A stretch of 64,000 nucleotides of DNA from Desulfitibacter sp. BRH_c19 (GCA_001515945.1 LOER01000003.1:1-64000), one strand, 5' to 3'. Positions 12,431 through 55,835 are shown, numbered from the stretch's first letter. Notes: generated by a model not told the origin, from the letters alone. Numbers and translations: made by a program.

Positions 12431-12634
12431 ATGTGTAAAACAATGTATGAATATAGGTTTATTAAAATAAAGCTTAAGTCAGGATTTAAAGGAAGAAAGC
12501 CTGAGGAAGACTATCATGAAATCATTGAACAGTACGCAAGGGAAGGTTGGAGGTTAGTTCAAATTTTTGCACCAGCTATAAGCGGATATGGTGCAGCAGA
12601 GTTTTATGAACTAATATTCGAAAGGAATAAGTAA
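12431..12634 (+). CDS. DUF4177 protein
   Basis: A 67-residue protein matching DUF4177: a beta strand at the start (YEYRFIKIKL), a helix with EIIEQYAREGWRLVQ, and a closing strand FYELIFER. Function is unknown; members are small cytosolic proteins. The ribosome binding site GGAAGGAG is well placed for the ATG at 12431. Confidence 0.85.
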   Translation: MCKTMYEYRFIKIKLKSGFKGRKPEEDYHEIIEQYAREGWRLVQIFAPAISGYGAAEFYELIFERNK

Positions 12635-12670
12635 AACAGATAAAAACTGGATAAAGAGTGAGAAAATTAA

Positions 12671-14832: not shown

Positions 14833-15903
14833 ATGTATGATGTGGTAATCGTAGGAGCAGGGCCCTCAGGGGCTACTTTAGCTAGACTGATTGGGAATAG
14901 ATTTAGGGTGTTATTAATTGATAAGAGACAGCTTTTAGATGAAAAGAATGGAACTGATGAAAAGTGTTGTGGGGGTCTTATTGCCCCTGATGCTCAATAT
15001 ATGCTGGGAAAATTAGGACTTGGAGTTCCTAAAAGGGTATTAGTAGGCCCCCAATTATTTACGGTAAGAACTATGGACTTACAAAGTAATATTGAAAGAT
15101 ACTACCAAAGACACTATATTAATATAGATCGAGGAAAATTTGACTCGTGGTTAGTATCATTAATTCCACCATCTGTTGACATAAGATGTGGTTCTCAGTT
15201 TAAAACTTTTGAACGTACAGGGGGAAACTTCAATATTAAGCTTATCTATGATGGAAAAGAGTACATTGAGAGGGCAAGAATACTGGTAGGTGCAGATGGG
15301 GCTTTTTCAACCGTACGCAGGCAACTGGCCCCCTTACTGTTTCAAAAAAAATATGTAGCAATACAAGAGTGGTATAAGGTACAAGATACTTTACCTTATT
15401 TTTCAGCAATTTTCGATAGTGAAATTACAGATTTCTACTCATGGACTATTCCAAAGGAAGATTATCTGCTGGTCGGAGCAGCTGTACCAGTAAAAGAGAA
15501 TGTTGGCTACAAATATAACTTATTAAAAAAGAAACTGTCAACTTGTGGATTTGAATTAAAAACATTAGTAAAGAAACATGGTTGTTATATAATTCGACCC
15601 GAAACTGGAGCTCAAATCTATTTAGGTGAAAGCAATGTAATGTTTATCGGGGAAGCAGCTGGCTGGATTAGTCCAACATCTGCTGAAGGCTTAAGCTATT
15701 CATTTAGAAGTGCATTGGCTTTAGCTAAAAGCTTAAAGAGCAAATCAGAAAACTATCTATCAGACTATATCCAAAACACCAAAGGTTTAAAATTTAATAT
15801 ATTTACCAAAAACTTAAAAGCACCTTTTATGTATAACCCCTTGATAAGAGGACTTGTTATGAAAACAGGAATATCCAGCATGAATATGATTGATAGTGAT
15901 TAG
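14833..15903 (+). CDS. FAD-dependent oxidoreductase, geranylgeranyl reductase family
   Basis: A 356-residue flavoprotein. The N-terminal dinucleotide fold has DVVIVGAGPSGATLARL (about 3-19), a CCGG segment near 49-52 sits where this family has its conserved cysteine, GADGAFSTVRR (about 155-165) is the second FAD motif, and GEAAGWISPTSAEG (about 274-287) is the third. Relatives reduce isoprenoid double bonds of lipids or quinones, or hydroxylate aromatic rings. Without neighbours of a lipid pathway the substrate is unknown. A strong GGAGGAG precedes the ATG. Confidence 0.88.
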   Translation: MYDVVIVGAGPSGATLARLIGNRFRVLLIDKRQLLDEKNGTDEKCCGGLIAPDAQYMLGKLGLGVPKRVLVGPQLFTVRTMDLQSNIERYYQRHYINIDRGKFDSWLVSLIPPSVDIRCGSQFKTFERTGGNFNIKLIYDGKEYIERARILVGADGAFSTVRRQLAPLLFQKKYVAIQEWYKVQDTLPYFSAIFDSEITDFYSWTIPKEDYLLVGAAVPVKENVGYKYNLLKKKLSTCGFELKTLVKKHGCYIIRPETGAQIYLGESNVMFIGEAAGWISPTSAEGLSYSFRSALALAKSLKSKSENYLSDYIQNTKGLKFNIFTKNLKAPFMYNPLIRGLVMKTGISSMNMIDSD

Positions 15904-41342: not shown

Positions 41343-41903
41343 TTATAGACCTTTCCAGCGGTATAGCGTGTCTATCTCTATATTAAAATTATCCAATATC
41401 CGTCCTATAGTTTGATTTACTAAATCATCCAATGAATTAGGATTTGTATAGAAAGCTGGTACAGGTGGGGCAATTGTTACCCCTATTTTGCATAGCTTTA
41501 ACATATTTTCCAAATGGACTGCATTTAGTGGGGTCTCACGTACCATCAATATAAGATTTCTCTTTTCTTTTATTGCTACATCTGCTGCACGGATTATTAA
41601 ATCATCTGTATACCCATTAGCTATTCCAGCTAGAGTTTTCATGCTACAGGGCGCTACTATCATTCCATCACATTTAAAAGAACCACTAGATATGGCAGCA
41701 GCCAAGTTATCTTCATGGTAATGAAAATCAGCCATGGCTATTAAGTCATCTATTGTAAACTCCGTTTCAGTTTCTATAGTTACTCTACCCCACTTACTTA
41801 TAACAAGGTGGGTTTCAACATCTGCCTTTTCCATTAAAGCCTGTAAAATCCTTATTCCATAAATTGCTCCTGTTGCACCAGTTATTCCTATAATTAATTT
41901 CAT
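41343..41903 (-). CDS. ubiX: Flavin prenyltransferase UbiX
   Basis: Joins dimethylallyl phosphate to FMN to make prenylated FMN, the cofactor of UbiD-type decarboxylases. 186 residues; IIGITGATGAIYGIRIL (about 4-20) is the FMN-binding start, MIVAPCSMKTLAGIANGYTDDL (about 86-107) and VRETPLNAVHLENML (about 122-136) are the conserved blocks. Start is ATG 41903 with AGGAG; the frame runs 11 codons further up. It is in one unit with the LpdD-like gene, divergent from the riboswitch operon that encodes a UbiD protein. Confidence 0.95.
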   Translation of the reverse strand: MKLIIGITGATGAIYGIRILQALMEKADVETHLVISKWGRVTIETETEFTIDDLIAMADFHYHEDNLAAAISSGSFKCDGMIVAPCSMKTLAGIANGYTDDLIIRAADVAIKEKRNLILMVRETPLNAVHLENMLKLCKIGVTIAPPVPAFYTNPNSLDDLVNQTIGRILDNFNIEIDTLYRWKGL

Positions 41904-41922
41904 GATTAATGTCTCCTCACAT

Positions 41923-42309
41923 TTACTTTTTCCCATTTAATTGTTCTATGATTAGGGGAATAATTTGAGTTCCATACCATTTAAACTTTTCTATAACTTG
42001 TGTGGTAGCCTTATCTATATGTATTCCAGCAGTTACTACTGTTGTCTCCTTAAAGTGCTTACATATTTCTTCTGCTATCGGTAGGGCAATTTCATCGTCT
42101 TTGTGACCTAGGATGTTTAGCACAGAGGTAGTGCAGCTTGTACTACCATCCCCTGTTAAACTAGATCGAGGTTGACTTATGACCGTAGTACCTATGTGTG
42201 TTTTTTTGCCTCCCCCAATATAAATATTAATCCCATCTTGAGTTTTTACAATAGTACCTTTTAAACACAGAGTTCCTTCACCAATACTAACATGAAATGT
42301 TGAATACAT
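41923..42309 (-). CDS. LpdD-like prenylated-flavin chaperone family protein
   Basis: A 128-residue protein resembling LpdD, the small partner of gallate decarboxylase thought to help place prenyl-FMN in UbiD enzymes. Family features are GGKKTHIGTTVIS (about 33-45), the GHKDDEIALPIAEEI helix (about 68-82), and VVTAGIHIDKAT (about 90-101). GGAGG stands before the ATG. It precedes ubiX by 19 bases. The functional link to prFMN rests on the family and on the ubiX/ubiD neighbours. Confidence 0.8.
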   Translation of the reverse strand: MYSTFHVSIGEGTLCLKGTIVKTQDGINIYIGGGKKTHIGTTVISQPRSSLTGDGSTSCTTSVLNILGHKDDEIALPIAEEICKHFKETTVVTAGIHIDKATTQVIEKFKWYGTQIIPLIIEQLNGKK

Positions 42310-42441: not shown

Positions 42442-42470
42442 TTGATTTTTTTGCCGTATCCAATTAAAAT
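42442..42470 (+). promoter_or_regulatory. Likely promoter of the riboswitch operon
   Basis: TTGATT (42442-42447) and TAAAAT (42465-42470) with a 17-base spacer, ending just before the riboswitch fold. Confidence 0.5.
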
Positions 42471-42484
42471 CTACTTAAGTGAAT

Positions 42485-42670
42485 ATTTCCAATAAGTGCC
42501 TCATCTTTTTGAGGATAATAGGGAATCAGGTGAAAATCCTGTACGGTCCCGCCACTGTTAGCGAGGAGCGACTTATCATATAACCACTGTTTTCTGGTCC
42601 AATGGATTAGGGAAATGGGAAGGAGATAGGGAGCATTGATTTGCGAGTCAGGAAACCTGCTTGTTGGTAC
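42485..42670 (+). promoter_or_regulatory. Cobalamin riboswitch
   Basis: The B12 box AGTCAGGAAACCTGC is at 42646-42660. Upstream are the other conserved parts: GGGAATCAGGTGAAAATCC (42530-42548), GTACGGTCCCGCCACTGT (about 42541-42558), and GCGAGGAGC. The element is followed by a long-stem terminator at 42718-42755, so adenosylcobalamin or another cobalamin should stop transcription. The genes below are hyuA, hyuB, ECF transporter genes and a UbiD decarboxylase, not cobalamin synthesis genes. Confidence 0.95.
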
Positions 42671-42717
42671 TGATTGTTTACTCTCTAGGAAAGAGTGATA
42701 ATTTGAGAATGATGGTA

Positions 42718-42755
42718 AAGTTCTCAGTCTTGTTTAAGGCTGAGAACTTTTTTTT
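42718..42755 (+). terminator. Riboswitch-controlled terminator
   Basis: Perfect stem AAGTTCTCAG (42718-42727) with CTGAGAACTT (42740-42749) and eight T. It lies between the cobalamin riboswitch and hyuA, 26 bases before its GTG start. Confidence 0.9.
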
Positions 42756-42781
42756 AATGTGTTCTAGGAAGGAGTGGTGGT

Positions 42782-44854
42782 GTGTTTCAGATAGGGATAG
42801 ATATGGGCGGTACGTTTACAGATTTTATGGTTATAAATGAAGGAGACGTTAGAATAGTCAAAGTTGCATCAAACAAAGATAATCCCATTGCTACAGTTAT
42901 CAATGGTTTGGAATTGATAGCAGAAGGCTATTATCTTACCTTGGAGGAGTTTTTGCCAAGGATTAACCGTTTTGTACATGGTAATACAGTAGCTATTAAC
43001 GCTCTTATTCAAAGAAAAGGGGTAAAAACTGCACTAATTGCTACTGCTGGATTTAATGATGCTTTAGAGATGAGGCGTTCTAAGTTAAATAATCAATGGG
43101 ATTTCTTTGCCCCAATTCCGCCAGTTCTAGTTCCTCGCTATTTGCGTTTTAATCTGAAGGAAAGAATTGATTATAGTGGCAAGGTTATTCAAGCGCTGGA
43201 CAAAGAGAATTTAGAGCAAATAGTAGATAAAATAAATGCTGAAAAAGTAGAAGCGGTAGCTGTTTGCCTGTTGTTTTCTTTTTTAAATTCTTCCCATGAA
43301 GTATTTGTAAAAGCATACCTGGAAAAAGTGCTGCCTGAAGTATTTGTATCCATTTCCAGCGAAGTGGCACCAAAGCTTGGAGAATATGAGAGGACTTCTA
43401 CTACGGTGCTGAATGCTTATCTTACACCACTAGTGTCCAATTATTTGAATGAGTTGACATCGATACTTCAAACTAAGGGGTTAATGTGCGATATTCATTT
43501 GGTACAGAATAATGGAGGCTTAACTGATATATCTCTTGCCAAACAGTTCGGAGTAAAAGGACTTTTTTCAGGGCCAGCGGCAGGGAGTAGTGGTGCCAGG
43601 GCACTGGCTAAAGAATTAAAAGAACCTAATTTAGTTTTAGTAGATATGGGAGGAACCAGCTTTGACGTAAGCTTGATTAAAGACCATTCAATCAAAGTTA
43701 ATCCTGAAGCTGAGGTGGCAGGCTACCCAATCAATCTACCTCTGATAGACATCAACTCAGTAGGTATTGGTGGCGGCAGTATTGCTTCTGTGGATACTAG
43801 CATGAGGCTTAGTGTGGGACCTGACTCAGCTGAGGCATTTCCAGGACCAGCCTGCTATGATCGGGGAGGAAAAGAACCAACCATTACTGATGCAGCTCTG
43901 CTGCTGGGGTTTATTAAACCTAATAGCTTCGGTGGGGGAAGCATGGAAATAAAAAAACAATTAGCTATCCAGGCAATAAAGGAGAAAGTGGCTAATCCTC
44001 TCGGCATTAGTGTTGAAGGGGCGGCTTTTGCCATTTATCAAATTGCTGAGGCTAAAATGGTAGATGCAGTACATTTAATGACTGTACAAAAGGGATATGA
44101 CCCTAGAGAATTTATCCTCGGAGCAGTTGGAGGTGCGTCACCTCTCTTTGCAGCTAAAATAGCTCAAGATCTAGGTGTGAAGAAAATTGTTATTCCTGCT
44201 TTTGGTGAAGTATTTTGCGCTCAGGGAATGCTGCAATCTCATCTTAAACTGGATATAATGCAAACTTATATACGAAGTCTAGCTAAAATCAATGCATGTG
44301 AAATTAATGAGGTTTTAAAAGAATTGAAATCTAAAGCTCAAGGACAGTTGGTTAAACAGGGGGTGGCTCTAGAAAATATTGATTACAGGTTCTTCTTTGA
44401 AATGAGGTATACCGATCAGCATCATCAACTGTCAGTTCCCTTTATAGGAGGAAAACTTGATGCTAAAATCATTGATCATTTAATAAGTGAGTTTCATCTG
44501 CTTCATGAAAAGTACTATGGATATGCTGAACCAAGTCAAGAATGTTCACTAATAAATATACGCATGGAAGTCTGGGAGAAGGAAGTTGATTACCCCTTTT
44601 CGCTTAACAATAACTCTACACTTGATCAGGCACCTGCTCCGATAGAATGCCGTTTAATCTGTTGGAATAATGATTTAACATTTAATAAAATTCCTGTTTA
44701 CCAATCATTAAGCTTAAAAGCAGGAGTTGAGATTATAGGACCGGCATTAATTGAAAAAACGTACACCACAATCTTTGTCAGTCCTAATTTAAAGGCTCAT
44801 GCAGACAATAGCTTTAATATTATACTGACGGCAAAGGAGGTGAATTTTAATTGA
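42782..44854 (+). CDS. hyuA: HyuA: hydantoinase/oxoprolinase family subunit A
   Basis: A 690-residue ATP-dependent subunit of the N-methylhydantoinase/5-oxoprolinase/acetone carboxylase superfamily. IDMGGTFTDF (5-14) is the first phosphate loop of the actin-like ATPase fold, FVHGNTVAINALIQRKG (about 62-78) and GPAAGSSGARAL and VDMGGTSFDVSL (about 285-296) are conserved, as is GGGSIASVD. Such enzymes open a cyclic amide or activate a carbonyl, with subunit B. Start is GTG with GGAAGGAG. HyuA and HyuB overlap at TTGA. The substrate is unknown; cobalamin control is unusual for the family. Confidence 0.93.
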   Translation: MFQIGIDMGGTFTDFMVINEGDVRIVKVASNKDNPIATVINGLELIAEGYYLTLEEFLPRINRFVHGNTVAINALIQRKGVKTALIATAGFNDALEMRRSKLNNQWDFFAPIPPVLVPRYLRFNLKERIDYSGKVIQALDKENLEQIVDKINAEKVEAVAVCLLFSFLNSSHEVFVKAYLEKVLPEVFVSISSEVAPKLGEYERTSTTVLNAYLTPLVSNYLNELTSILQTKGLMCDIHLVQNNGGLTDISLAKQFGVKGLFSGPAAGSSGARALAKELKEPNLVLVDMGGTSFDVSLIKDHSIKVNPEAEVAGYPINLPLIDINSVGIGGGSIASVDTSMRLSVGPDSAEAFPGPACYDRGGKEPTITDAALLLGFIKPNSFGGGSMEIKKQLAIQAIKEKVANPLGISVEGAAFAIYQIAEAKMVDAVHLMTVQKGYDPREFILGAVGGASPLFAAKIAQDLGVKKIVIPAFGEVFCAQGMLQSHLKLDIMQTYIRSLAKINACEINEVLKELKSKAQGQLVKQGVALENIDYRFFFEMRYTDQHHQLSVPFIGGKLDAKIIDHLISEFHLLHEKYYGYAEPSQECSLINIRMEVWEKEVDYPFSLNNNSTLDQAPAPIECRLICWNNDLTFNKIPVYQSLSLKAGVEIIGPALIEKTYTTIFVSPNLKAHADNSFNIILTAKEVNFN

Positions 44855-46563
44855 ATGTAGACCAGATTATTCTTCAGTCTGTGATTGCACATCGCTTAGA
44901 TACAATTTCCCAGGAGATGGGGGTTGCACTTGAGAGGTCATCTCGCTCACCTATCTTTGCTGAAGCCTGTGATTTTGCTTGTGGAGTCTGCAATTATAAG
45001 GGTGAGCTTGTTTCCCAGTTAAATGGCATTCCCATTCTAGCTGCTGCTGGCTCATTTAGTGTGCAGGCAGTATTAGAGAAGTACAAGGATAATATATACG
45101 AAGGTGATGTCTTCATCGTCAATGACCCTTATTGGGGTGGAAATCATCTGCCTGACATTGGTATTATAACTCCTGTTTTCTACCAGGATGAACTAATATT
45201 TTTTACGGTAAGCCGTGCGCACCACGGTGATATAGGTGGATCCGTGGCGGGTAGCTACAACACAAGAGCTACAGAAATATTTCAGGAGGGAATTAGAATC
45301 CCTCCCATAAAGCTAGTTAGCCAAAACAGCATAATCCATGAAGTGCTCAATTTAATAAGCTATAACACCAGAAATCCAGAAATGCTAAAAAGTGATCTCT
45401 TTGCTCAAATAGGAGCCAATAAAATTGGTCATGACAGATTAAAAGTATTACTTGCTAAATATGGGTTAAAAGATGTAAAGGAATCAGTAAACCAGCTTCT
45501 TCAAAAAGCAGAAGATTTGACAAAAGTCGAAATATCTAAATTTCCAACAGGCACCTATATAGGTGAAGAGTGGCTCGATGATGATGGATTTCAGGAAACA
45601 CCGGTGAAGATTAAGGCTACAGTCACCTTTAAAAATGGCCAGGTTACTATTGATTTTACAGGAACTGACAAACAGGTAACAGGCTTTATCAATAGCTCCC
45701 TTGTTACTACTAAAAGTGCAGCATACATAGCACTATTATGGGCACTATCACCGGAGATACCTAGAAACAGCGGGGCATTTCGACCCATTGAAATCTTAGC
45801 TCCACCGGGAACAGTAGTTAACCCTGCTGAGCCAGCTCCTGTAACCCTGTCTACTCTTCATTGTGCTAGCGAAATTATCTCTGCTATTTTAAAAGCCTGT
45901 GCCAATGCAGTACCTGAGAGAATTCCAGCAGGGTTTGGTCGCTACTGCGGACCTTCTTTCTATGGTGTTGATCCAAGAAATCAAAAGTTTTATGTAGGAT
46001 TTGCTTTCTGTTGTTTAGGTTCAGGTGGGGGGAAAAAAGGACAAGATGGATTTCCTTATATGGCTCCTATCTCAAATTATGGTGGAGTTCGTGCCCCAAA
46101 CAATGAAGCTAATGAGGTGCAATATCCCCTGTTAACATTATGCCATCACTTCGAAATGGATACAGCAGGGGCAGGTAAATACAGGGGAGCTCCGGGAGTA
46201 AAATACAAGATTCAGTTTTACGGTCCTGATCCTAGTATTGTCATGTTTGGTGATGGAATGAAAATAGCGCCTTATGGCATAGAGGGTGGTAAAGCAGGCA
46301 GCCTGAATAGAAATCAATTGTCTACCAAAAAAAATGGGAGTGAATCTCTAGAAAGTAAGTCACCGCCTCGTGCTTTACAGTCAGGAGATACTTTGACTCT
46401 TTTATCGTCAGGTGGAGGTGGGTGGGGAAATCCTCATGAAAGGGACCCGCAAATGGTTTACGATGACTATAAAAATGGTTACATAAGCCTTGAGACTGCT
46501 TTAAAGGAGTACGGGGTGGCTGTTACAACTGAAGGAATTAATTGGAATGAAACAAAAAAATAG
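44851..46563 (+). CDS. hyuB: HyuB: hydantoinase/oxoprolinase family subunit B
   Basis: A 570-residue partner of HyuA. The family features are ALERSSRSPIFAEACDFACGV (about 27-47, shown in part), FIVNDPYWGGNHLPDIG (about 89-105), VSRAHHGDIGGSVAGS with its metal-binding His pair (about 119-134), and SGGGGWGNPHERDP near the C-terminus. TTG start overlaps the hyuA stop. In the superfamily the B subunit carries the hydrolytic or carboxylating metal site. Full length, no missing motif. Confidence 0.93.
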   Translation: MNVDQIILQSVIAHRLDTISQEMGVALERSSRSPIFAEACDFACGVCNYKGELVSQLNGIPILAAAGSFSVQAVLEKYKDNIYEGDVFIVNDPYWGGNHLPDIGIITPVFYQDELIFFTVSRAHHGDIGGSVAGSYNTRATEIFQEGIRIPPIKLVSQNSIIHEVLNLISYNTRNPEMLKSDLFAQIGANKIGHDRLKVLLAKYGLKDVKESVNQLLQKAEDLTKVEISKFPTGTYIGEEWLDDDGFQETPVKIKATVTFKNGQVTIDFTGTDKQVTGFINSSLVTTKSAAYIALLWALSPEIPRNSGAFRPIEILAPPGTVVNPAEPAPVTLSTLHCASEIISAILKACANAVPERIPAGFGRYCGPSFYGVDPRNQKFYVGFAFCCLGSGGGKKGQDGFPYMAPISNYGGVRAPNNEANEVQYPLLTLCHHFEMDTAGAGKYRGAPGVKYKIQFYGPDPSIVMFGDGMKIAPYGIEGGKAGSLNRNQLSTKKNGSESLESKSPPRALQSGDTLTLLSSGGGGWGNPHERDPQMVYDDYKNGYISLETALKEYGVAVTTEGINWNETKK

Positions 46564-46581
46564 ATGAATGGAGTGTTTATT

Positions 46582-47151
46582 ATGAGTCAAGTTATAGCTA
46601 ATCAAGAAGCAAGAGTAGTCACTAAAAAGTTTAGTAGATTTGATACAAAAGCATTGGTTGGTGCGGTTTTTTTAGGGGTTGTTTTTGTCCTAGTACAACA
46701 AATAGCTCACCGGATAGATGCAGTAGTTAACCCAGCTTCTGTAATTATCGGTGGAATAACCTGGGCCACCTTTACCGGGCTAGTAGTCCTTCTTTTCAGA
46801 CAGCCTGCAGGAGTTATTACTGGTGAAGTTCAGGCTTTTATAGCTGTAGCTACAGGCCTGTCACCATTAGCTCTATTCTTTATACCAGCTAACGGCTTAG
46901 GTTCTTTAGCGTATTCCCTAGTTTCTTGGAAATTATCAATGGATAAATGGTCACATCACCTACTAGCTCAGACAGTAACAAATATAGTTGGCAACATCTG
47001 TGTAGCAATTGGGCTGCATGTGATTCTTAAACTGCCTATAGCGATAATTCTGGTGTCTTTTAGCATTACTACAATAGCAGGTATTATTGGTGGAACTATC
47101 CTTACTAAAATAATTTATGACAATGTGGTGAAATCTGGAGTATTAAACTAA
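46582..47151 (+). CDS. ECF transporter substrate-binding component, YkoE-like
   Basis: A 189-residue membrane protein with five or six helices. FRQPAGVITGEVQAFIA (about 73-89) and the ending TKIIYDNVVKSGVL match YkoE, the substrate component of the YkoEDC transporter of Bacillus for hydroxymethylpyrimidine/thiamine. ATG 46582 has GGAG nine bases upstream; an ATG at 46564 has none. The T component and double ATPase are encoded downstream, after an intervening ubiD-like gene. Cobalamin control in place of thiamine control suggests another substrate. Confidence 0.8.
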   Translation: MSQVIANQEARVVTKKFSRFDTKALVGAVFLGVVFVLVQQIAHRIDAVVNPASVIIGGITWATFTGLVVLLFRQPAGVITGEVQAFIAVATGLSPLALFFIPANGLGSLAYSLVSWKLSMDKWSHHLLAQTVTNIVGNICVAIGLHVILKLPIAIILVSFSITTIAGIIGGTILTKIIYDNVVKSGVLN

Positions 47152-47164
47152 GGAGTGACATTTT

Positions 47165-48538
47165 ATGAATCAAGACTGGAGAGCTTTTTTAGATAGCTTT
47201 GAGGTGCAGTTTCCAAGAGAAGTTTTGCGGATTAAGGAGGAACTAAACAGGAAGTATGAGCCAACTGCAATTATTATGGAACTAGAGCGGCAAAAGCGAT
47301 ACCCTCTAGTTCGCTTTGAGAAAGTGTCTGGATCAGAGTTTGGCGTTGTGGCTAATACGATTGCTACTCGCCAGCGGATGGCCATGGCTATAGGAGTTGA
47401 TGAAAAAGAATTGCCTACAGCTTATGCTGAGCGCATTAAGAGAGCAATTGAGCCTGAGATTATTGAAAACCCAGCATTTAAAGAAAATTGTTTGACTGGC
47501 CCTGATTTAGATCTGACCAAGCTGCCGATTTTGACCCATTTTCCAATTGATGCAGGTCCATATATTACAGCGGGATTAGTAACTGCCAAGGATCCGGCTT
47601 CCGGTGCTGACACTTGTGGCTACCATAGGATGCAGCTCAAAGGACCTGGCAAGCTAGGGGTAAGCCTACACTCACGGCAACGACTGTGGGAATACCATCG
47701 AAGGGCAGAGAAAATGGGGAAAAACCTAGAAGCAGCTGTTGTATTAGGAGTTCATCCAGCGGTTTCTTTAGGTTCAATGGCACTAATTCCCTATGATCAG
47801 GGTAAGTTTGCTCGAATGGGAGGCTTGTTGGATGAGCCGTTACAAATTGCTCATTGTACTACTATAGACGTAGAAGTTCCAGCATGGGCAGAAATTGTTA
47901 TTGAAGGTGAGATTTTAGCAGGAGAACGGGAGCCAGAAGGACCCTTTGCTGAATTTACTAATTACGCATGCTATAGGAGTACTGAGAATATCTTCATACC
48001 AAAGGCTATCTATTATCGTACCAACGCTTTATATCAATGCATTACACCGGGAATGTGTGCTGAACACAACACAATTGTAGCTGTCCAGCGAGAGGGAGAT
48101 GTGCTGAAGGCACTAAAAGAAAATCTACCTAATATCGTCAATGTTCATGCACCTTTATCTGCATGCGGACTATTTCACTGTTATATTTCCATGAAAAAAA
48201 TTGCTGAGGGGCAACCTATGCAAGCCATTATGACAGCCCTTTCAGTAGATCATAATCTAAAACATGTAGTAGTTGTGGACGAAGATGTAGATGTCTTTAA
48301 CGAAAGTCAGGTATTATGGGCTATTGCCACTAGAGTCCAGGCAGACCGGGATGTTCATATTATTCCACAACATATGGGAATGGGATGTACCTTAGATCCA
48401 TCTACTGACGATTTAAGCAGAAGTGCCAAAATGGGAATTAATGCCACTAAACCCCTTGCCAATTTTGCGAGTAGTATTGAGTTCCATCCTGAGGCTAAGA
48501 AAAAGGCTCAAGAAATTTTAGGCAACATTGGATATTAG
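47165..48538 (+). CDS. UbiD family prFMN-dependent decarboxylase
   Basis: A 457-residue reversible decarboxylase of aromatic or alpha,beta-unsaturated acids. The catalytic triad region is EREPEGPFAEF (about 254-264), and SLHSRQRLWEYHRRAE (about 167-182) holds the conserved arginine. MQLKGPGKLGVSLH and CGYHRMQ form the prFMN/metal site with Glu. AGGAG precedes the ATG. It sits between the S component and ATPase genes of an ECF transporter; UbiX and the chaperone are divergent, 5 kb upstream. The substrate may be what the transporter brings in, or what HyuAB makes. Confidence 0.93.
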   Translation: MNQDWRAFLDSFEVQFPREVLRIKEELNRKYEPTAIIMELERQKRYPLVRFEKVSGSEFGVVANTIATRQRMAMAIGVDEKELPTAYAERIKRAIEPEIIENPAFKENCLTGPDLDLTKLPILTHFPIDAGPYITAGLVTAKDPASGADTCGYHRMQLKGPGKLGVSLHSRQRLWEYHRRAEKMGKNLEAAVVLGVHPAVSLGSMALIPYDQGKFARMGGLLDEPLQIAHCTTIDVEVPAWAEIVIEGEILAGEREPEGPFAEFTNYACYRSTENIFIPKAIYYRTNALYQCITPGMCAEHNTIVAVQREGDVLKALKENLPNIVNVHAPLSACGLFHCYISMKKIAEGQPMQAIMTALSVDHNLKHVVVVDEDVDVFNESQVLWAIATRVQADRDVHIIPQHMGMGCTLDPSTDDLSRSAKMGINATKPLANFASSIEFHPEAKKKAQEILGNIGY

Positions 48539-48555
48539 AAAAGGGAGGAAACGCC

Positions 48556-50088
48556 ATGAATCAGCTTAGTGCAAGAATTAAGAGCCTTAACTATCCTGAA
48601 CACGCTGATCCAGTACTTAAGGATATTTGTATTGACTTTAAGCCTGGTGAATTTGTCTTCTTAGTAGGCTCACCCCGTTCTGGCAAATCCTCCTTGTGCC
48701 AAGCCTTAGCTGGTGTCATCCCCTCCTTTAAAGCAGGCACCTTAATTGGTGAAATTACCTTCGTTGGGGAAAATATTATAACTAAACGGCTGCCTGAAAT
48801 GGCAGGAACAATCGGCCTTGTTAGAGATGAGCCACAAAATCAGTTATTCTGTACAACTGTTGAGGAAGATCTGGCCTTTGGTCCATGTAATCTCATGCTA
48901 GAGCCGGAAGAGGTAATAGCTAGAATCAAAAAAACCTTGCAGTTAGTAGGGTTACCAGGGTATGAGAAGCGAAAACCTGAGACCCTTTCTGGAGGGGAAT
49001 CTCAACGGATTGCCCTTGCCTCTACGCTGACTCTGGAGCCTAACATCATTATTCTAGATGGTGCTGTGACTCAACTGGATCCTCAAGGAAGAAAGGAAAT
49101 ATACGAAAAACTACACACCCTTGCTTCACAGGAAAAGAGGATAGTTATTGTGGTAGAGGAAAGAGTAGACCACTACCTGCATTTAGCTAATCGCTTAATC
49201 AGGCTAGACAAGGGGACTGTGATCTATGATGGCTATCCTAAAAAAGAAGCACTTTACACTACGGAAAAGATCTGGAATCTTCCTAAAAAGATTATTTCAG
49301 ATAATGTTATCAATGCCCGAAAACCAATTGTATCTGTTAATAGCCTGACTTTTCAGTACCCCAATGGTGACTTTGCCTTAGAAAATATCTCTTTAGATAT
49401 TTATCCAGGAGAATTTATTGCTCTCATGGGTAAAAACGGAGCAGGTAAAACAACTCTGGCCAAGCACTTTAACGGTCTACATAAGCCTGCAAGTGGTGAT
49501 GTGGTCATTGATCATATGAATACTAAAAATTACTCAACTGCCCAATTGGCAAGTCAAGTGGGCTATCTATTTCAAAATCCTCAATTGCAGATTTGTACTA
49601 ATTCAGTTCAAGCAGAAGCAGCATTTGCTTTAAAGGTAAAAAAGCTGCCTGAAAAAGAGATTGAAGCTAGGGTCTCGCTACTTTTGGCTAAAATGGGATT
49701 AACTCAGTTTGCTCAGAACCATCCGTACAAGCTGGCTAAAGGCGATCTACAAAAGCTGGCCCTAGCTTCTAGCCTGGTAAATGAGCCTCAGATATTGATA
49801 ATTGATGAGCCTACCTCGCAAATGAGTGCTTCCCAGAGCTGGGAGACAATGAAGTTAATTTCTGAATATAATCGAAATGGTGTTACAGTAATAATGATAT
49901 CCCATGATTTAAATCTAGCTCTTAATTTCGCTAGCAGAATGGTAATTATGGATCAAGGTGAAATTGTAGTGGATATTCCAACTGCTCATTGCTTAAATCA
50001 TGAAGAAAACTTGCGAGAGCTAGGAATAGATGTAAGGGAAATATATGATGAAGGAGAAATGAGACATGAAGCTATTGCTGGGGTATAG
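48556..50088 (+). CDS. Fused ECF transporter ATPase (YkoD-like)
   Basis: A 510-residue protein with two ABC ATPase domains. Domain 1: Walker A GSPRSGKS (38-45), signature LSGGES (144-149), Walker B IIILDG (164-169). Domain 2: Walker A GKNGAGKT (292-299), signature LAKGDLQ (393-399), Walker B ILIIDE (413-418), switch His450. Domain 1 lacks the catalytic glutamate (Gly169) and the switch histidine (Glu202); domain 2 lacks a normal signature. One composite site should thus be inactive and the other intact. It powers uptake with the T and S components. Overlaps the T gene by 23 bases. Confidence 0.93.
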   Translation: MNQLSARIKSLNYPEHADPVLKDICIDFKPGEFVFLVGSPRSGKSSLCQALAGVIPSFKAGTLIGEITFVGENIITKRLPEMAGTIGLVRDEPQNQLFCTTVEEDLAFGPCNLMLEPEEVIARIKKTLQLVGLPGYEKRKPETLSGGESQRIALASTLTLEPNIIILDGAVTQLDPQGRKEIYEKLHTLASQEKRIVIVVEERVDHYLHLANRLIRLDKGTVIYDGYPKKEALYTTEKIWNLPKKIISDNVINARKPIVSVNSLTFQYPNGDFALENISLDIYPGEFIALMGKNGAGKTTLAKHFNGLHKPASGDVVIDHMNTKNYSTAQLASQVGYLFQNPQLQICTNSVQAEAAFALKVKKLPEKEIEARVSLLLAKMGLTQFAQNHPYKLAKGDLQKLALASSLVNEPQILIIDEPTSQMSASQSWETMKLISEYNRNGVTVIMISHDLNLALNFASRMVIMDQGEIVVDIPTAHCLNHEENLRELGIDVREIYDEGEMRHEAIAGV

Positions 50089-50827
50089 TGAAAACAGCTC
50101 CTTTATCCACAAATTAGATCCTCGAGTTAAGCTGCTATGGCTGTTAGGCAATTTATTCTTAATACTCTTTTTTCAAGACCTAACAGTATTAGTCCTCAGT
50201 TTTGGATTAGTTTTAACAACTACTATCTTAGCTGGTATATCCTTAGTAGTTTTTTTGCCACTTATAAAAATAATGACCATCCTTGGAGTACAGTTTATTA
50301 TATTTCAGGGATTATTGCGGGCAGAAGGTGCAGTTTTATTTCAACTGGGGAGCTTAAATTTCTACCTTGGTGGAGTTTTAGTAGGAATAAAGGGTATTAC
50401 TCTCCTAATAACTTTAGCTTTCGTATTTCTTCAGTTTGTGATGTGTACCTCTCCAAATGAGCTTACATTATTATTGGTAAAGTTGAAATTGCCCCAAAAA
50501 TACGCTGTCTTGCTTGGGTTAGCCCTTCACTTTCTCCCCATTATGGAAAAGGATTTGCGGACAATCTATGATAGCCAGCAAGCCAGAGGTCTGGAACTGA
50601 CAACTGCCTGGCAAAAGGCCAAGGGTTTGGTGCCAATAATACTTCCTTTAATCCTGCGAGCATTAAAAAGGGCTCAAGAAGTAGCCCTATCTATGGAGCT
50701 AAAAGGATATACTCGTTTTCCGGCTCGCACCTTTCTAGACCGCATTGTCTTTACTTCGACAGACTACCTTGCTTTTTGCTCATTGGTTGTTTATTTTAGC
50801 GGATTAATACTTCTGCAAATTATTTAA
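50066..50827 (+). CDS. ECF transporter T component (YkoC/EcfT-like)
   Basis: A 253-residue membrane protein that couples the ATPases to the S component. LDPRVKLLWLLGNL (about 17-30) begins the first helix; the two coupling helices carry SQQARGLEL (about 169-177) and ALSMELKGYTRFPART (about 210-225), close to the usual A-R-G motifs, the second having Lys in place of Arg. It starts inside the end of the ATPase gene (GAGAC ATG, with GAAGGAG upstream). It is the last gene of the riboswitch operon. Confidence 0.92.
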   Translation: MKLLLGYSENSSFIHKLDPRVKLLWLLGNLFLILFFQDLTVLVLSFGLVLTTTILAGISLVVFLPLIKIMTILGVQFIIFQGLLRAEGAVLFQLGSLNFYLGGVLVGIKGITLLITLAFVFLQFVMCTSPNELTLLLVKLKLPQKYAVLLGLALHFLPIMEKDLRTIYDSQQARGLELTTAWQKAKGLVPIILPLILRALKRAQEVALSMELKGYTRFPARTFLDRIVFTSTDYLAFCSLVVYFSGLILLQII

Positions 50828-51310: not shown

Positions 51311-51937
51311 GTGGTCAGTTCTTTAAGCTTAAATATGGCAGATCTTAAGGAGGATTTAGTATTCGCTGAGATTACAGAACAACTGAATAAAAATGTTCCT
51401 GCAGAAGAGATTTTTAAAGAACTTCAACTTGGTATGGAGATAATAGGTGAACGTTACCAATCTCAACAATACTATTTATCCGAACTAATTATGGCAGCAG
51501 ATATTTTTAAAAATGCCGCAAAGAATTTACAGGACAAATTTCAATCTACTGACAAGAAAATAGCTACCATTGTTCTTGGCACAGTATCAGGTGATATCCA
51601 TGATATAGGAAAAGATATTGTATCATTAATATTTACTACTAACGGATTTGAAGTTATTGATTTAGGGGTAGATGTTCCGATCCAAAAGTTCATAGATGCC
51701 ATTCGTGAACACAAACCAGAGTTTGTTGGCATTTCTTGTTTATTAACGACTGCCTTTGATAATATGAAAAAGACTATTGAGACAATCAAAGAAGAAGGCC
51801 TAGGAAGTAATGTGAAAATTTTAATAGGTGGGGGACCTGTTGACAAGGGAACAAGTAATTATGTAGGTGCTGATGAAGTGTGTGAAGATGCGCCATCAGG
51901 TGTGGAAATTGCAAAAAAATTGTTGGAGGTGAAATAA
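51311..51937 (+). CDS. Corrinoid protein of a methyltransferase system (1)
   Basis: A 208-residue methyl-carrying cobalamin protein like MtaC/MtbC. A helical cap (about 10-85) precedes the Rossmann B12 domain; the axial ligand is His97 in GDIHDIGKD, and ILIGGGPV (about 171-178) binds the lower part of the cofactor. It accepts a methyl group from a substrate and passes it on. GTG start with GGGGGG. The gene is directly followed by the UroD-type methyltransferase. Confidence 0.95.
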   Translation: MVSSLSLNMADLKEDLVFAEITEQLNKNVPAEEIFKELQLGMEIIGERYQSQQYYLSELIMAADIFKNAAKNLQDKFQSTDKKIATIVLGTVSGDIHDIGKDIVSLIFTTNGFEVIDLGVDVPIQKFIDAIREHKPEFVGISCLLTTAFDNMKKTIETIKEEGLGSNVKILIGGGPVDKGTSNYVGADEVCEDAPSGVEIAKKLLEVK

Positions 51938-51941
51938 TACT

Positions 51942-53048
51942 ATGACATCTACAACGGATCTTTTTAATGAGCGATTGAATCGTATTCGTACTGCAGTAGA
52001 ATTAAGAAAACCTGATAGAGTCCCTATTGTTCCTTTAGGTGACTCATTTTGTGCCAATCATCTGGGTGAAAAAGTATCAGATTTTTGTACTATTCCTAAA
52101 CTATCTAATGAAATAATGTTAAAATCCTTTACTAGTCTAGGAGAAGTTGACGGATTACAACATGTTTCATTTTATGTTCATATGCTTAGCTCTATATGGT
52201 TATCAAAGCTAAAAATTCCTGGTCGCGATTTGCCAGATGACGAATTGTGGCAGGTGGATGAAGTTGAATTAATGAAAATAGAAGACTATGATTTTATAAT
52301 AGAAAAGGGATACAATACATTTCTTGGTGAATATTATATGACCCGACTAGATAATCTTGGTGAAAAGCTTAATCCTTTTTTAGAATCATTTCCTGGAGCA
52401 ATTAAGGCAACTATTGATTTAGGAATTGTACCATTTTCGCCTGCAATTGTCACCATCCCATATGAGAACTTTTGTGGTGGGAGGTCTATGGTAGCATTTA
52501 TGAGAGATTTATATCGTATACCTGATAAAGTTCAAGCAGCCATGGATGTAGCCATTGAAGATATAGTTAATAATACAAGGCAGCTTTTACAAACAGTGAA
52601 ACCAATTGCTATATGGGTTGGAGGCTGGCGAGCAGCCAGTGAGTTTTTGGCACCTCATCTATGGCAACGTTTTGTATGGCCCTACTATAAAAGAATAATA
52701 GAGGTTGTTGTGGAGGAAGGGGTTATTCCTGTTCTGCATTTTGACTCCGATTGGACTAGAGATCTAGAATATTTACGAGAGTTACCCAAAGCAAAGTGCA
52801 TATTTTCCCCTGATGGTATGACGGATATTTTTAAAGCAAAGGAAATTTTGGATGGGCATATGTGCATAATGGGCGATGTTCCTGCTGCCATGCTTACGCT
52901 AGGAAGCCCAGAGGAAGTTTCTGAATACTCAAAACGTCTCATAAATGAAATTGGACCATCTGGTTTTATTCTTGCTCAAGGTTGTGATATTCCACCCAAT
53001 GCAAAGCCAGAAAATGTTAAAGCAATGATTGATGCTGTCAAACTTTAA
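51942..53048 (+). CDS. UroD-type corrinoid methyltransferase
   Basis: A 368-residue protein of the uroporphyrinogen decarboxylase superfamily, as MtaA, MtbA and CmuA. Blocks seen are RKPDRVPIVP (about 22-31), IPVLHFDSDW (about 262-271), FSPDGMTDI, IMGDVPAAML (about 309-318) and GCDIPPNAKPENVKA (347-361). MtaA binds zinc with H-x-C and a later C; here His266 and Cys348 are kept but the middle position is Asp (HFDSD), so metal binding or substrate may differ. It probably moves methyl groups between substrate, corrinoid protein 1 and an acceptor. Confidence 0.88.
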   Translation: MTSTTDLFNERLNRIRTAVELRKPDRVPIVPLGDSFCANHLGEKVSDFCTIPKLSNEIMLKSFTSLGEVDGLQHVSFYVHMLSSIWLSKLKIPGRDLPDDELWQVDEVELMKIEDYDFIIEKGYNTFLGEYYMTRLDNLGEKLNPFLESFPGAIKATIDLGIVPFSPAIVTIPYENFCGGRSMVAFMRDLYRIPDKVQAAMDVAIEDIVNNTRQLLQTVKPIAIWVGGWRAASEFLAPHLWQRFVWPYYKRIIEVVVEEGVIPVLHFDSDWTRDLEYLRELPKAKCIFSPDGMTDIFKAKEILDGHMCIMGDVPAAMLTLGSPEEVSEYSKRLINEIGPSGFILAQGCDIPPNAKPENVKAMIDAVKL

Positions 53049-53062
53049 AAATTTCAGTATTT

Positions 53063-53091
53063 AGGTACCCCTTTCTGCAAAAGGGGTACCT
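53063..53091. promoter_or_regulatory. Perfect 12-bp inverted repeat before the GntR gene
   Basis: AGGTACCCCTTT (53063-53074) and AAAGGGGTACCT (53080-53091) with a five-base loop CTGCA. It lies 15 bases after the methyltransferase stop and just before the ribosome binding site of the regulator gene. No T run follows, so it is more an mRNA processing/stability hairpin or an operator than a terminator. It may lower expression of the downstream half of the operon. Confidence 0.6.
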
Positions 53092-53112
53092 ATTAGGAGG
53101 TCATATTTTTCT

Positions 53113-53832
53113 ATGAAGCCTATGTCATCTTTTACTCCTGCTTATTATCGATTAGCAGAAGACATTAAAAATAAAATAGAAAGTGGAGAATTGCGGCCTG
53201 GTGATATAATACCCTCAGAGGTCCAACTCGCAAAAAAGCATCAGGTAAGTAGAATGACCATTCGTCAAGGAATATCACTATTGGTTAAAGAAGGATTTAT
53301 TAAATCAATACAGGGCAAAGGAAGTTTTATAACCGCTCCACCTATGGATACCTTAATGCTAAAGTTTTCAGATAACAAATTGCTAGGTGAAAATAAAAAC
53401 GCAAAGGTTGACCTTTTAAGTGTTAACGTAATTCCTGCTGATAAAACAATATCCTATAAGTTAAATGTAGTTTTAGGCACAAAAGTATTAAAGTTAATTC
53501 AATTACTATCTGATCCTGATCCAGTAGCGATTGATACTCGTTTTTTACCTTACTTAAAAGGTGTACCAATTTTAGAAAATGAGCTTAAATATGCAGCTTT
53601 CCCTGACCTTGTTTCGCAATTTACACAACTAATTTCTGTTCAAAACACATTAGAAATATCAGCAAGTGTATTATCTGATGAAGAAGCAAAACTACTTGAA
53701 GCAATGACTGGGCAGCCTGCCTTGTGTATCGAACAAATTATATGTGCAGCGGATGATGTGCCAATGGGGTGGTCAAAAATGATTTGTAGGAATGATCGAT
53801 TTACAATAAAGGCAATTTCTCAAACTATATAG
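53113..53832 (+). CDS. GntR family regulator with UTRA domain
   Basis: A 239-residue repressor of the HutC subfamily. The winged helix is at about 8-75 (SEVQLAKKHQVSRMTIRQGI, about 35-54), and residues 85-239 form a UTRA ligand-binding domain (TRFLPYLKGVPILEN, QPALCIEQIICAADDVP). Its neighbours suggest that it senses the methylated substrate or product of the corrinoid system; the palindrome TGTCTAGACA at 51195 is a likely binding site. AGGAGG is 12 bases before the ATG. Confidence 0.92.
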   Translation: MKPMSSFTPAYYRLAEDIKNKIESGELRPGDIIPSEVQLAKKHQVSRMTIRQGISLLVKEGFIKSIQGKGSFITAPPMDTLMLKFSDNKLLGENKNAKVDLLSVNVIPADKTISYKLNVVLGTKVLKLIQLLSDPDPVAIDTRFLPYLKGVPILENELKYAAFPDLVSQFTQLISVQNTLEISASVLSDEEAKLLEAMTGQPALCIEQIICAADDVPMGWSKMICRNDRFTIKAISQTI

Positions 53833-53848
53833 AGAGGTTGTGATTGAA

Positions 53849-54496
53849 ATGCCTGTAGTTCATAATCTGTTAGTAACGGCAGTTGTTGGCATCAGGGAAG
53901 AAAAGGTGTTGTTTTTAGTTCGTCAGGGACTATCAAAGGGTATTGACCCATTTTTGCTTCTAGAGGACATTAGGGTGGGGTTAAAGATAGTTGGAGATAT
54001 GTATACTCAAGGAAAATACTTTTTAGCAGACTTAATTGTTGCCGCAGAAATTTATAAAGAAGTTCAAAAACTAGTATTAATAGATACTGACCAGAACTGT
54101 GTACAAAACCCAGAGATTATATTTGGAACAGTCCAGAAGGATATCCACGATATAGGTAAAAACATTACCATTTCCACAATGCAGCACTATGGTTTAAAAG
54201 TCTTAGATTTAGGCGTAAACGTATCCCCAGAAGATTTTTTAAAAAGTCTTGTTGATACTGGAGTACCGATACTTTGTTTATCAGGATTAATCTCAGATTC
54301 CTATGATTCTATGAAGACCACAGTATCTTTAATCAAAAACAATGAGAAGCTAAATCAAACCACGGTTATTATAGGTGGATTAGTTAATCAAGCTGTATGT
54401 AATTATATTGAAGCTGATTATTGGGTTAATGATTGTACTACTGGTGTAGAGATATGTAAGAGGATCATCGAAAAGAAATACCAACTTCAAGCATAG
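53849..54496 (+). CDS. Corrinoid protein of a methyltransferase system (2)
   Basis: A 215-residue second corrinoid protein, distinct from the first. The axial ligand is in KDIHDIGKN (His about 100), with the helical cap before it; the glycine-rich IIGGLV is near 174. The start is uncertain: GTG 53840 is in the same frame but only two bases from GAGG, so ATG 53849 is preferred. Two corrinoid proteins next to one UroD-type enzyme could mean two methyl donors, or that one is for another methyltransferase encoded elsewhere. The sequence after the B12 motif is more divergent than in protein 1. Confidence 0.9.
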   Translation: MPVVHNLLVTAVVGIREEKVLFLVRQGLSKGIDPFLLLEDIRVGLKIVGDMYTQGKYFLADLIVAAEIYKEVQKLVLIDTDQNCVQNPEIIFGTVQKDIHDIGKNITISTMQHYGLKVLDLGVNVSPEDFLKSLVDTGVPILCLSGLISDSYDSMKTTVSLIKNNEKLNQTTVIIGGLVNQAVCNYIEADYWVNDCTTGVEICKRIIEKKYQLQA

Positions 54497-54512
54497 TATA
54501 ATGAGGTGAATC

Positions 54513-55202
54513 ATGAGTTCTGTAATCATAGCATGTGAGACTATACAAGATGAGGTAATGAAGGCTATATTTGAAACAGGGACTAAGTTTCCCGTTATTT
54601 GGATTGAATCAGGCCTTCATAACTATCCAGAAATCCTTCGGGATAAACTACAAGATCAGATTAATAAAATCGCAAATGTAGACGAAATATATTTGGCCTT
54701 TGGGTATTGTGGGAACTCGCTTTTGGGTGTTCACTCTGAAAAAGCAAAATTAATTATTCCAAAAGTAGATGACTGTATTTCCCTTCTTTTAGGATCTTGT
54801 AAGATACGGGAAGACTTAGCTCAAGAAGCAGGAACATATTTCTTAACTAGAGGTTGGATTGAACACGAAAACAATATCATTAAGGAATATAATCGTTGTA
54901 TAGAAAAGTACGGCAAAGAAAAAGCCACCAAAGTTATTAAAATGATGTTAGAGCATTACAAATGCCTGGTTCTTATTGATACTGGAGCGTATTTAACAAA
55001 GGATTATTTACATTATTCCCATTCCTTTGCCTCATCTTTTGGATTGGAACACAAAATTGTGCATGGTTCTATAAGCTTTTTGAAGCGGCTTTTTACAGGT
55101 CCTTGGGACGAGAATTTTATCATTCTCCAACCTGGGGAAGTTATCAATATTGAGTATTTTCGAAATGTAGTTGATCCTGAATCAAAACTATCTCAATTAT
55201 AA
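54513..55202 (+). CDS. DUF1638 protein
   Basis: A 229-residue protein matching DUF1638. Family features are VIIACETIQDEV at the start, an LHNYPEILRDKL segment (about 35-46), FGYCGNSLLGV (about 63-73), and KVDDCISLLLGSC (about 83-95) with conserved cysteines. DUF1638 genes occur again and again beside corrinoid methyltransferases in anaerobes and methanogens, but the role is unknown; maturation or reactivation of the corrinoid protein has been a natural guess. Spacing to the corrinoid gene is 16 bases, to the GTPase gene 24. Confidence 0.87.
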   Translation: MSSVIIACETIQDEVMKAIFETGTKFPVIWIESGLHNYPEILRDKLQDQINKIANVDEIYLAFGYCGNSLLGVHSEKAKLIIPKVDDCISLLLGSCKIREDLAQEAGTYFLTRGWIEHENNIIKEYNRCIEKYGKEKATKVIKMMLEHYKCLVLIDTGAYLTKDYLHYSHSFASSFGLEHKIVHGSISFLKRLFTGPWDENFIILQPGEVINIEYFRNVVDPESKLSQL

Positions 55203-55226
55203 ATCTATCTAAAGGAGAGCTGCTTT

Positions 55227-55835
55227 ATGAAAGTGATATTAATAGGAGGATTTCTTGGATCTGGCAAAACTACATTTATTAGATATTTTGCAAAATACTT
55301 GATTAGTAAATCAGAAAACAAGGTGGTAATTATAGAAAATGAAATAGGAGAAGTCGGTATTGACGACCAATTTTTGTCTAAAGAAGGGTTGTTAGTTAAA
55401 GAATTGTTCGGTGGCTGTATATGTTGCCAACTAACGGGAGATTTAACCCTAACAATAAACAAACTAGCTCAAGAGTATAATCCAGATTGGGTAATAATAG
55501 AAACTACAGGTGTAGCGAAACCAGTTGCGATTATTAACACCTTGAATAAATATGGGAAAGGTATAGAAAACATACACACTTTAATACTTGCAGACGCTAG
55601 TCGTTGGGTTGAATTAGTTGAAATAATGCCAGAATTAATAAAGTCACAGGTAGGTTCAGGAGATGTGATACTTGTTAACAAAACCGATGAAGTGGACAAG
55701 ATAAATTTGAATGAAACACTATCAAGTATTAATAATATAAATAGCGAAGCTAAGGTGTTTACACTTTCTGCTTTACATGGAATTGAAGACACATTACTAA
55801 AGGGGTTGTATGATTATGCATCAGGCCGTAGCTAA
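55227..55835 (+). CDS. Short CobW/COG0523-type GTPase
   Basis: A 202-residue G3E GTPase. P-loop GGFLGSGKT (7-15), the metal-binding GCICC motif (63-67), ETTGVAKP (about 92-99) and NKTDEVDK (about 151-158) are present. The C-terminal CobW_C domain (about 100 residues) of most members is missing. COG0523 proteins are metallochaperones or activators for cobalt, zinc or other metals. Its place in a corrinoid operon suggests metal or cofactor insertion, or energy-dependent reactivation of the corrinoid protein. The next gene overlaps its end by 26 bases. Confidence 0.9.
   Translation: MKVILIGGFLGSGKTTFIRYFAKYLISKSENKVVIIENEIGEVGIDDQFLSKEGLLVKELFGGCICCQLTGDLTLTINKLAQEYNPDWVIIETTGVAKPVAIINTLNKYGKGIENIHTLILADASRWVELVEIMPELIKSQVGSGDVILVNKTDEVDKINLNETLSSINNINSEAKVFTLSALHGIEDTLLKGLYDYASGRS

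Follow-up and report, generated by a model that had tools for sequence, protein, structure and literature searches.

Downstream of a cobalamin riboswitch in a 64,000-nucleotide stretch of DNA from Desulfitibacter sp. BRH_c19 (GCA_001515945.1, LOER01000003.1:1-64000; hereafter the window), six genes encode an ATP-dependent hydantoinase/oxoprolinase-type enzyme (HyuAB), a (de)carboxylase of the UbiD family and an energy-coupling factor (ECF) transporter made up of an S component, a fused double ATPase (A) and a T component. On a narrow balance of probability, this operon is a cobalamin-repressed system for the uptake and processing of a small N-heteroaromatic precursor, most likely that of a cobamide lower ligand. 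It exemplifies a widespread but undescribed B12-switched uptake system of anaerobic bacteria which make their own B12-type cofactors, and whose cargo is most likely a lower-ligand building block. The analysis established the anatomy of the operon, the conservation of its riboswitch, the transporter as the constant unit, the presence of a riboswitch on UbiD-HyuAB units even where these are unlinked, and the occurrence of CobT and CbiD in all operon genomes tested.

The original prediction, made from the DNA of the window, had placed a cobalamin riboswitch and a terminator before hyuA, hyuB, the S gene, ubiD and the genes of the double ATPase and T component on one strand, and this layout was confirmed (Table 1). 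The riboswitch score of 113.4 bits compares with a gathering score of 31.5 bits for RF00174, the match covers model positions 1-189, and it is the sole Rfam match within the 64 kb. The six genes occupy positions 42782-50827 and overlap or are closely spaced, with an overlap of 4 bp between hyuA and hyuB and a further one between the double ATPase and T genes. A segment at 42705-42725 is predicted to pair with the 5' arm of the terminator as a competing antiterminator; this layout is as expected of a transcriptional off-switch, which would probably act by termination. Divergent from the operon and immediately upstream of it lies a pair of genes that had been missing from the predicted gene list, ubiX and an lpdD-type gene.

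Searches with the S component yielded 11 public-genome loci first and then further loci, phylum-wide and in one order; in these relatives, genes are mechanical open reading frames (ORFs) labeled by similarity, and riboswitches were called by Rfam and profile search. Counted once per genome, there are 40 close S loci including the window, which belong to Firmicutes, two Actinomycetota metagenome-assembled genomes (MAGs) and one deltaproteobacterial MAG. Carriers of the S family comprise 12 genera of one phylum sample and scattered MAGs outside it, and the system is rare in the large group around the deltaproteobacterial carrier, where one of 345 genomes has it. A cobalamin riboswitch is located directly upstream, on the same strand, in 38 of the 40 close loci. 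Homologous operons lacking the riboswitch, which would have spoken against a link to cobalamin, were looked for and are limited, among these close loci, to L043 and L146; both are devoid of ATPase and T genes, L043 adjoins a reverse-transcriptase-like ORF, and the two units look like relics. The gene order, in turn, is not conserved among the relatives, as at least six different orders follow the riboswitch (Table 1). That the riboswitch has been kept through so much rearrangement indicates that its conservation is not due to chance. The transporter is the constant part of these operons, while the enzymes vary between UbiD with HyuAB, UbiD alone, an aldehyde-ferredoxin-oxidoreductase-type (AOR-type) enzyme, or none, as would be expected if the organisms meet a needed compound in different chemical forms.

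Transporter and enzymes remain under the same type of control when they are separated. In the large genus g5, the A-T-S unit and a ubiD-hyuA-hyuB unit are far apart and each has its own cobalamin riboswitch; the riboswitch was found by profile search at all nine standalone ubiD-hyuAB loci of this genus (L198-L206, 118-132 bits) and also precedes such units in L141 and L156, 11 in total. A UbiD orthologue is present in 13 of 19 S-bearing genomes compared to 1 of 14 genomes without S (p 0.0009), and the one orthologue found without S (L207) is accompanied by neither HyuAB nor a riboswitch and resides in an unrelated setting. Thus, transporter and enzymes are associated with each other, and each of them also independently with cobalamin. 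In L042, even ubiX and an lpdD-type gene come with a separate riboswitch, and ubiX is part of the operon in L047-L050, L154 and L155.

The S component had been described as YkoE-like, which holds for its fold and for distant profile similarity, but not for membership in the YkoE family. Up to an E-value of 10, the window protein matched none of the Pfam families and thus not PF09819 (YkoE) either, its relatives likewise showed no PF09819 match in a profile test, and a sequence search of the PDB with the S profile returned only chance matches to TAL repeats and no relative. An AlphaFold2 model (mean predicted local distance difference test score 75) has six helices, and its top fold match in the PDB is YkoE (5EDL; probability 1.00, TM-score 0.62), with S components for biotin and thiamin next in rank; the folds it resembles include that of the thiamin-binding ThiT. 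Profile-profile comparison by hhalign with PF09819 members gave an E-value of 5e-8. Assignment to PF09819 itself was therefore rejected, and the protein is best regarded as the S component of an ECF transporter, with YkoE as a distant relative, but outside the described YkoE family; its gene shares an operon with T and ATPase genes of its own (PF02361, TIGR04520), and its fold is ECF-like. Two more distant S relatives have no riboswitch, and one of them (L051) adjoins allantoinase and ureidoglycolate-lyase genes, a setting which hints that the S superfamily accepts small N-heterocycles.

The operon UbiD has the three-domain profile of its family (PF01977, PF20695, PF20696), with a UbiX partner encoded next to the operon for supply of prenylated FMN (prFMN). 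In 23 operon UbiDs, the residues Glu256, Glu258, Gly259, Pro260, Phe261 and Glu263 of the motif E-x-E-G-P-F-x-E as well as Arg155 are invariant, as are His301 and Arg309, which align with chain positions His296 and Arg304 of 6H6V. This structure, which we take to be HmfF, the furandicarboxylate decarboxylase, matches the window protein with an E-value of 1.5e-76 (phmmer, 261 bits). We presume PF21758, the family of the lpdD-type gene product, to be the LpdD family, in agreement with the published fold of LpdD. The LpdD of Lactobacillus plantarum, a protein of proteasome-chaperone-like fold, is a chaperone that binds prFMNH2 and helps to activate UbiD (PMC10865409). For HyuAB, the nearest solved structure is the N-methylhydantoinase 6YRA, the carboxylases of the superfamily being more distant. 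The equivalog cut-offs were not reached for either CapAB caprolactamase (604 bits for CapA and 373 for CapB, cut-off 1000) or the acetone/acetophenone carboxylase subunits ApcC and ApcD (358 and 149 bits, cut-offs 1500). As HyuAB is closer to cyclic amidases than to carboxylases, it is more likely to open a cyclic amide or ureide at the expense of ATP. In L016, L017 and L041 the AOR-type enzyme (PF01314/PF02730 in L016) replaces UbiD-HyuAB beside S. At L016:3117-9641, a second cobalamin riboswitch is followed by genes for a zinc alcohol dehydrogenase, a TrpD-like glycosyl transferase family 3 protein and a binding-protein ATP-binding cassette transporter; these directly precede the S-ferredoxin-AOR unit, which has a riboswitch of its own.

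Several findings point towards the lower ligand. In L044, cobT (TIGR03160, 430 bits) is located directly upstream of the operon; one riboswitch precedes cobT and a second separates it from the operon. CobT is encoded in 20 of 20 operon genomes compared to 6 of 17 controls (p 1.4e-5), the controls being the first genomes of a list and not a matched sample, and CbiD was found in each of these 20 operon genomes as well. The operon is longer in five genomes of genus g148, where it extends to ubiX, an lpdD-type gene and a gene for a protein of 425-441 amino acids. Over its whole length, this protein can be aligned with the methyltransferase-DUF2284 proteins encoded in bza operons; the latter were labeled BzaC-like by their position beside bzaA, bzaB and bzaD and not by a BzaC profile. 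A reading of the g148 protein as a BzaC methyltransferase was abandoned, as Pfam and the alignment show that only the N-terminal part and DUF2284 remain; since the S-adenosylmethionine (SAM)-binding region is lost, we refer to it as BzaC-related only. In four of the five genomes an amino-acid-permease gene adjoins it. No homologue of ThiC, BzaA or BzaB was found in the three g148 genomes tested. BzaA/BzaB, which separate from ThiC in the tree, occur in 7 of the 20 operon genomes as opposed to 5 of 6 CobT-bearing controls, a difference that is suggestive only (p 0.065); two long-branched sequences of this set (G092, G402) could be BzaF. A phenolic lower ligand made via ArsAB was rejected, as the operon genomes have no adjacent CobT pairs.

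A number of points weigh against a role in lower-ligand supply. The adjacency of cobT is limited to a single locus, CobT and CbiD are marks of any cobamide producer, so that their presence is not specific to the lower ligand, and the BzaC-related gene belongs to the operon in no more than one genus, its methyltransferase part being gone. The window operon has none of BzaA/BzaB/BzaF or BzaD; these lie elsewhere in the genome, where a bzaA-bzaB-cobS-purF-bzaC-bzaD-bzaE cluster follows tandem riboswitches, and an organism with such a cluster should be able to manage without base import. In that case uptake would be economical but dispensable, which counts against a strict need. Furthermore, we know of no lower-ligand route that involves UbiD or HyuAB.

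In the scheme that we infer for the ligand, a lower-ligand base or its precursor, as well as for the order of reactions and the response to cobalamin, scarcity of coenzyme B12 (adenosylcobalamin) would allow the riboswitch leader to be read through and the operon to be expressed. The ECF transporter, which has T and fused A subunits dedicated to it, would then take up traces of an N-heteroaromatic base or precursor with high affinity. Imported precursors that are not usable as they are might be hydrolyzed by HyuAB at a cyclic amide or ureide at the expense of ATP, and trimmed by UbiD, whose prFMN would come from UbiX and be delivered by the LpdD-type chaperone. CobT would finally attach the resulting base as the cobamide lower ligand. 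It is possible, if doubtful, that this amounts to a dedicated anaerobic route in which an imported N-heteroaromatic compound with a cyclic amide or ureide and/or a ring carboxylate is converted by HyuAB and UbiD, or by an AOR-type step, to the base attached by CobT, and thus to a third source of lower ligands beside BluB and the Bza enzymes. The substrate might, as one idea, be a product of flavin breakdown, for instance lumichrome, as its pyrimidinedione ring would suit HyuAB and the resulting quinoxaline carboxylate would suit UbiD. At picomolar concentrations, uptake by an ECF transporter would be of use. Natural levels of free benzimidazoles are in the picomolar range (PMC4230183).

With rather low probability, the transporter might instead import a corrinoid or some other component of B12, such as cobinamide, a tetrapyrrole piece or the aminopropanol part. 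BtuM and CbrT, S components of similar size, bind cobalamin. Uptake of corrinoids and cobalt and salvage of corrinoids are the classical targets of cobalamin riboswitches, as in operons 1-5 of Dehalobacter restrictus; the main text of the corrinoid-starvation study on this organism describes five such riboswitches, each before a corrinoid operon, and makes no mention there of UbiD, hydantoinase or an operon of the present kind (PMC4285132). However, it is not evident what UbiD and HyuAB would do with corrinoids, the S fold is nearest to the thiamin-binding YkoE and ThiT, CbiD is present throughout the operon genomes tested, and the distant S branch of L051 lies among allantoin genes.

A similarly low probability is given to degradation of an aromatic compound or N-heterocycle which feeds a cobalamin-dependent process, the riboswitch setting catabolic priorities. 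UbiD and HyuAB families do act in anaerobic breakdown of aromatics and heterocycles (HmfF, acetophenone carboxylase, relatives of N-methylhydantoinase), and the AOR-type variants would be in line with such a function. Yet ECF uptake, of low capacity and high affinity, is typical of vitamins and not of carbon sources, many loci encode the transporter only, and repression by cobalamin of the supply of a substrate for a cobalamin enzyme would be backwards.

The original prediction had offered two readings, the import of a corrinoid-related compound, for example a lower-ligand precursor, processed by HyuAB and UbiD, and a cobalamin-free route that stands in when a corrinoid methyl-transfer operon downstream cannot work. 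Constant uptake with variable enzymes favors the former and disfavors the latter. Import gained ground through the riboswitch counts, the transporter-only operons, cobT in L044, the BzaC-related gene in five operons, and CobT and CbiD, while the ligand itself is what we infer. Replacement of a cobalamin-dependent route is improbable: cobalamin riboswitches can control cobalamin-independent isozymes, and mtaC-like and uroD-like genes are indeed nearby in the window (51311-53048), but these are absent after the operon in the closest relatives, L009, L010 and L012, transporter-only operons without any bypass enzyme are under the same control, and there is no known cobalamin-dependent counterpart of HyuAB-UbiD. 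The cluster 3' of the operon (51311-55835) encodes two MtaC-like corrinoid proteins, a UroD/MtaA-like methyltransferase, a GntR-type regulator and, as judged by eye, a DUF1638-like protein and a CobW-like GTPase.

Among known systems, YkoEDC, the ECF transporter for thiamin/hydroxymethylpyrimidine, shares the six-helix S fold, the fused double ATPase, the separate T component and the dedicated operon, but differs in an S component detectable by PF09819, a thiamin pyrophosphate instead of a cobalamin riboswitch, and no links to HyuAB, UbiD, UbiX and LpdD-type genes. Capture of such a thiamin-precursor transporter by a cobalamin riboswitch, to which the YkoE-like fold and profile and the YkoDC-like ATPase and T genes would lend themselves, is very improbable in view of the riboswitch type, the lack of a PF09819 match, the lack of a thiamin role for UbiD and HyuAB, and an S family that forms its own conserved clade. 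Uptake operons such as CbiMNQO, BtuFCD and the CblT type are likewise turned off in cobamide producers when coenzyme B12 is present, as is predicted here, but the present operon probably has another S family, and its enzymes have no known place in corrinoid metabolism. The UbiD of 6H6V has the same fold, the corresponding His and Arg positions, and UbiX and LpdD-type partners; the operon UbiD reaches only the phmmer score given above, and no known member is under a cobalamin riboswitch. CapAB caprolactamase and N-methylhydantoinase have the same architecture of a two-subunit ATP-dependent cyclic amidase, the window HyuAB remaining well below the CapAB cut-offs. The anaerobic bzaABCDE benzimidazole pathway is also controlled by cobalamin riboswitches, and the g148 operons contain a relative of its methyltransferase-DUF2284 proteins, yet without the methyltransferase region; ThiC-like BzaA/BzaB and the radical-SAM proteins BzaD/BzaE are missing from the operon.

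In accordance with the view that no pathway with this gene set has been described, a literature search revealed, among the papers covered, none that joins a cobalamin riboswitch with UbiD, and no relevant one that joins it with hydantoinase or, as judged by title and abstract, with YkoE. To our knowledge, no transporter for a free lower-ligand base has been described. Many bacteria synthesize the corrin ring but lack a recognised origin for the lower ligand, and a riboswitch-controlled transporter family with optional processing enzymes is a concrete and testable candidate. In a comparative study, the lower ligand could be predicted for only 58% of cobamide producers (PMC6461909). The operon also suggests substrates to look for in UbiD and HyuAB, families with many orphan members.

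Table 1. Features of the operon region in the window, gene orders behind the riboswitch and loci of the BzaC-related protein (S, A and T, ECF components)
Feature	Position or loci	Strand	Remarks
ubiX, flavin prenyltransferase (UbiD cofactor supplier)	41343..41936	-	TIGR00421 258 bits, cut-off 109
lpdD-type gene, probable prFMNH2 chaperone for UbiD	41923..42309	-	PF21758 108 bits
Cobalamin riboswitch aptamer	42477..42678	+	RF00174, full length, 113.4 bits, E 1.2e-27
Intrinsic terminator of expression platform	42717..42750	+	15-bp stem and T-run, z -7.05 vs shuffles
hyuA, ATP-dependent hydantoinase/oxoprolinase-type subunit A	42782..44854	+	690 aa; PF01968, PF05378, PF19278; nearest solved structure 6YRA
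hyuB, hydantoinase B/oxoprolinase-type subunit	44851..46563	+	570 aa; PF02538, 521 bits; nearest solved structure 6YRA
S component of ECF transporter	46564..47151	+	195 aa, six helices; new family, distant YkoE relative
ubiD, prFMN-dependent (de)carboxylase	47165..48538	+	TIGR00148 above cut-off; nearest solved structure 6H6V
ECF double ATPase (two fused A components)	48556..50088	+	TIGR04520 380 bits, two stretches
ECF T component (CbiQ superfamily)	50066..50827	+	PF02361 107 bits
Gene order hyuA-hyuB-S-ubiD-A-T	window, L009, L010, L012		after riboswitch
Gene order S-ubiD-A-T-hyuA-hyuB	L011		after riboswitch
Gene order A-T-S-ubiD-hyuA-hyuB	L013, L018, L044, L047-L050, L143 and others		after riboswitch
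Gene order S-ubiD-hyuA-hyuB-A-T	L014, L015		after riboswitch
Gene order S-ubiD-A-T	L019		after riboswitch
Gene order A-T-S-ubiD	L045		after riboswitch
Gene order A-T-S with AOR-type gene	L017, L041		after riboswitch
Gene order A-T-S alone	L046, L140, L144 and others		after riboswitch; transporter only
BzaC-related protein	L155:16677-18002, L154:2348-3643, L047:676-1953, L048:2052-3332, L050:2070-3350, L209:628-1914		without SAM-binding region

Some further observations concern bza operons and the surroundings of individual loci. Behind cobalamin riboswitches, bza operons with a gene for a PurF-like amidotransferase were found at L115:7708-17565 (G000 contig 8), where it lies between cobS and bzaC, and at L211:9764-14116, where it is the first gene, before bzaA; the protein may boost the supply of aminoimidazole ribotide, the precursor of 5-hydroxybenzimidazole. 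In loci of family f13, a gene for a UppS-like polyprenyl diphosphate synthase follows the enzyme genes, at L013:16143-17926, L038:15629-17418, L017:13256-13936 and L208:2217-3984, often together with two small paralogous genes, which probably reflects shared synteny. Upstream of an acetolactate synthase small-subunit gene of the ilvN/ilvH type in G000 contig 47 (L117, 11820-12317, minus strand), a cobalamin riboswitch is located at a distance of about 210 bp (12525-12696, minus strand), for which we know of no reason. Just downstream of the L009 operon and its lpdD-type gene, an azaaromatic (yjdF) riboswitch (15143-15244) precedes an ORF at 15260-15673; yjdF senses azaaromatics, though its position beside this operon is possibly due to chance.

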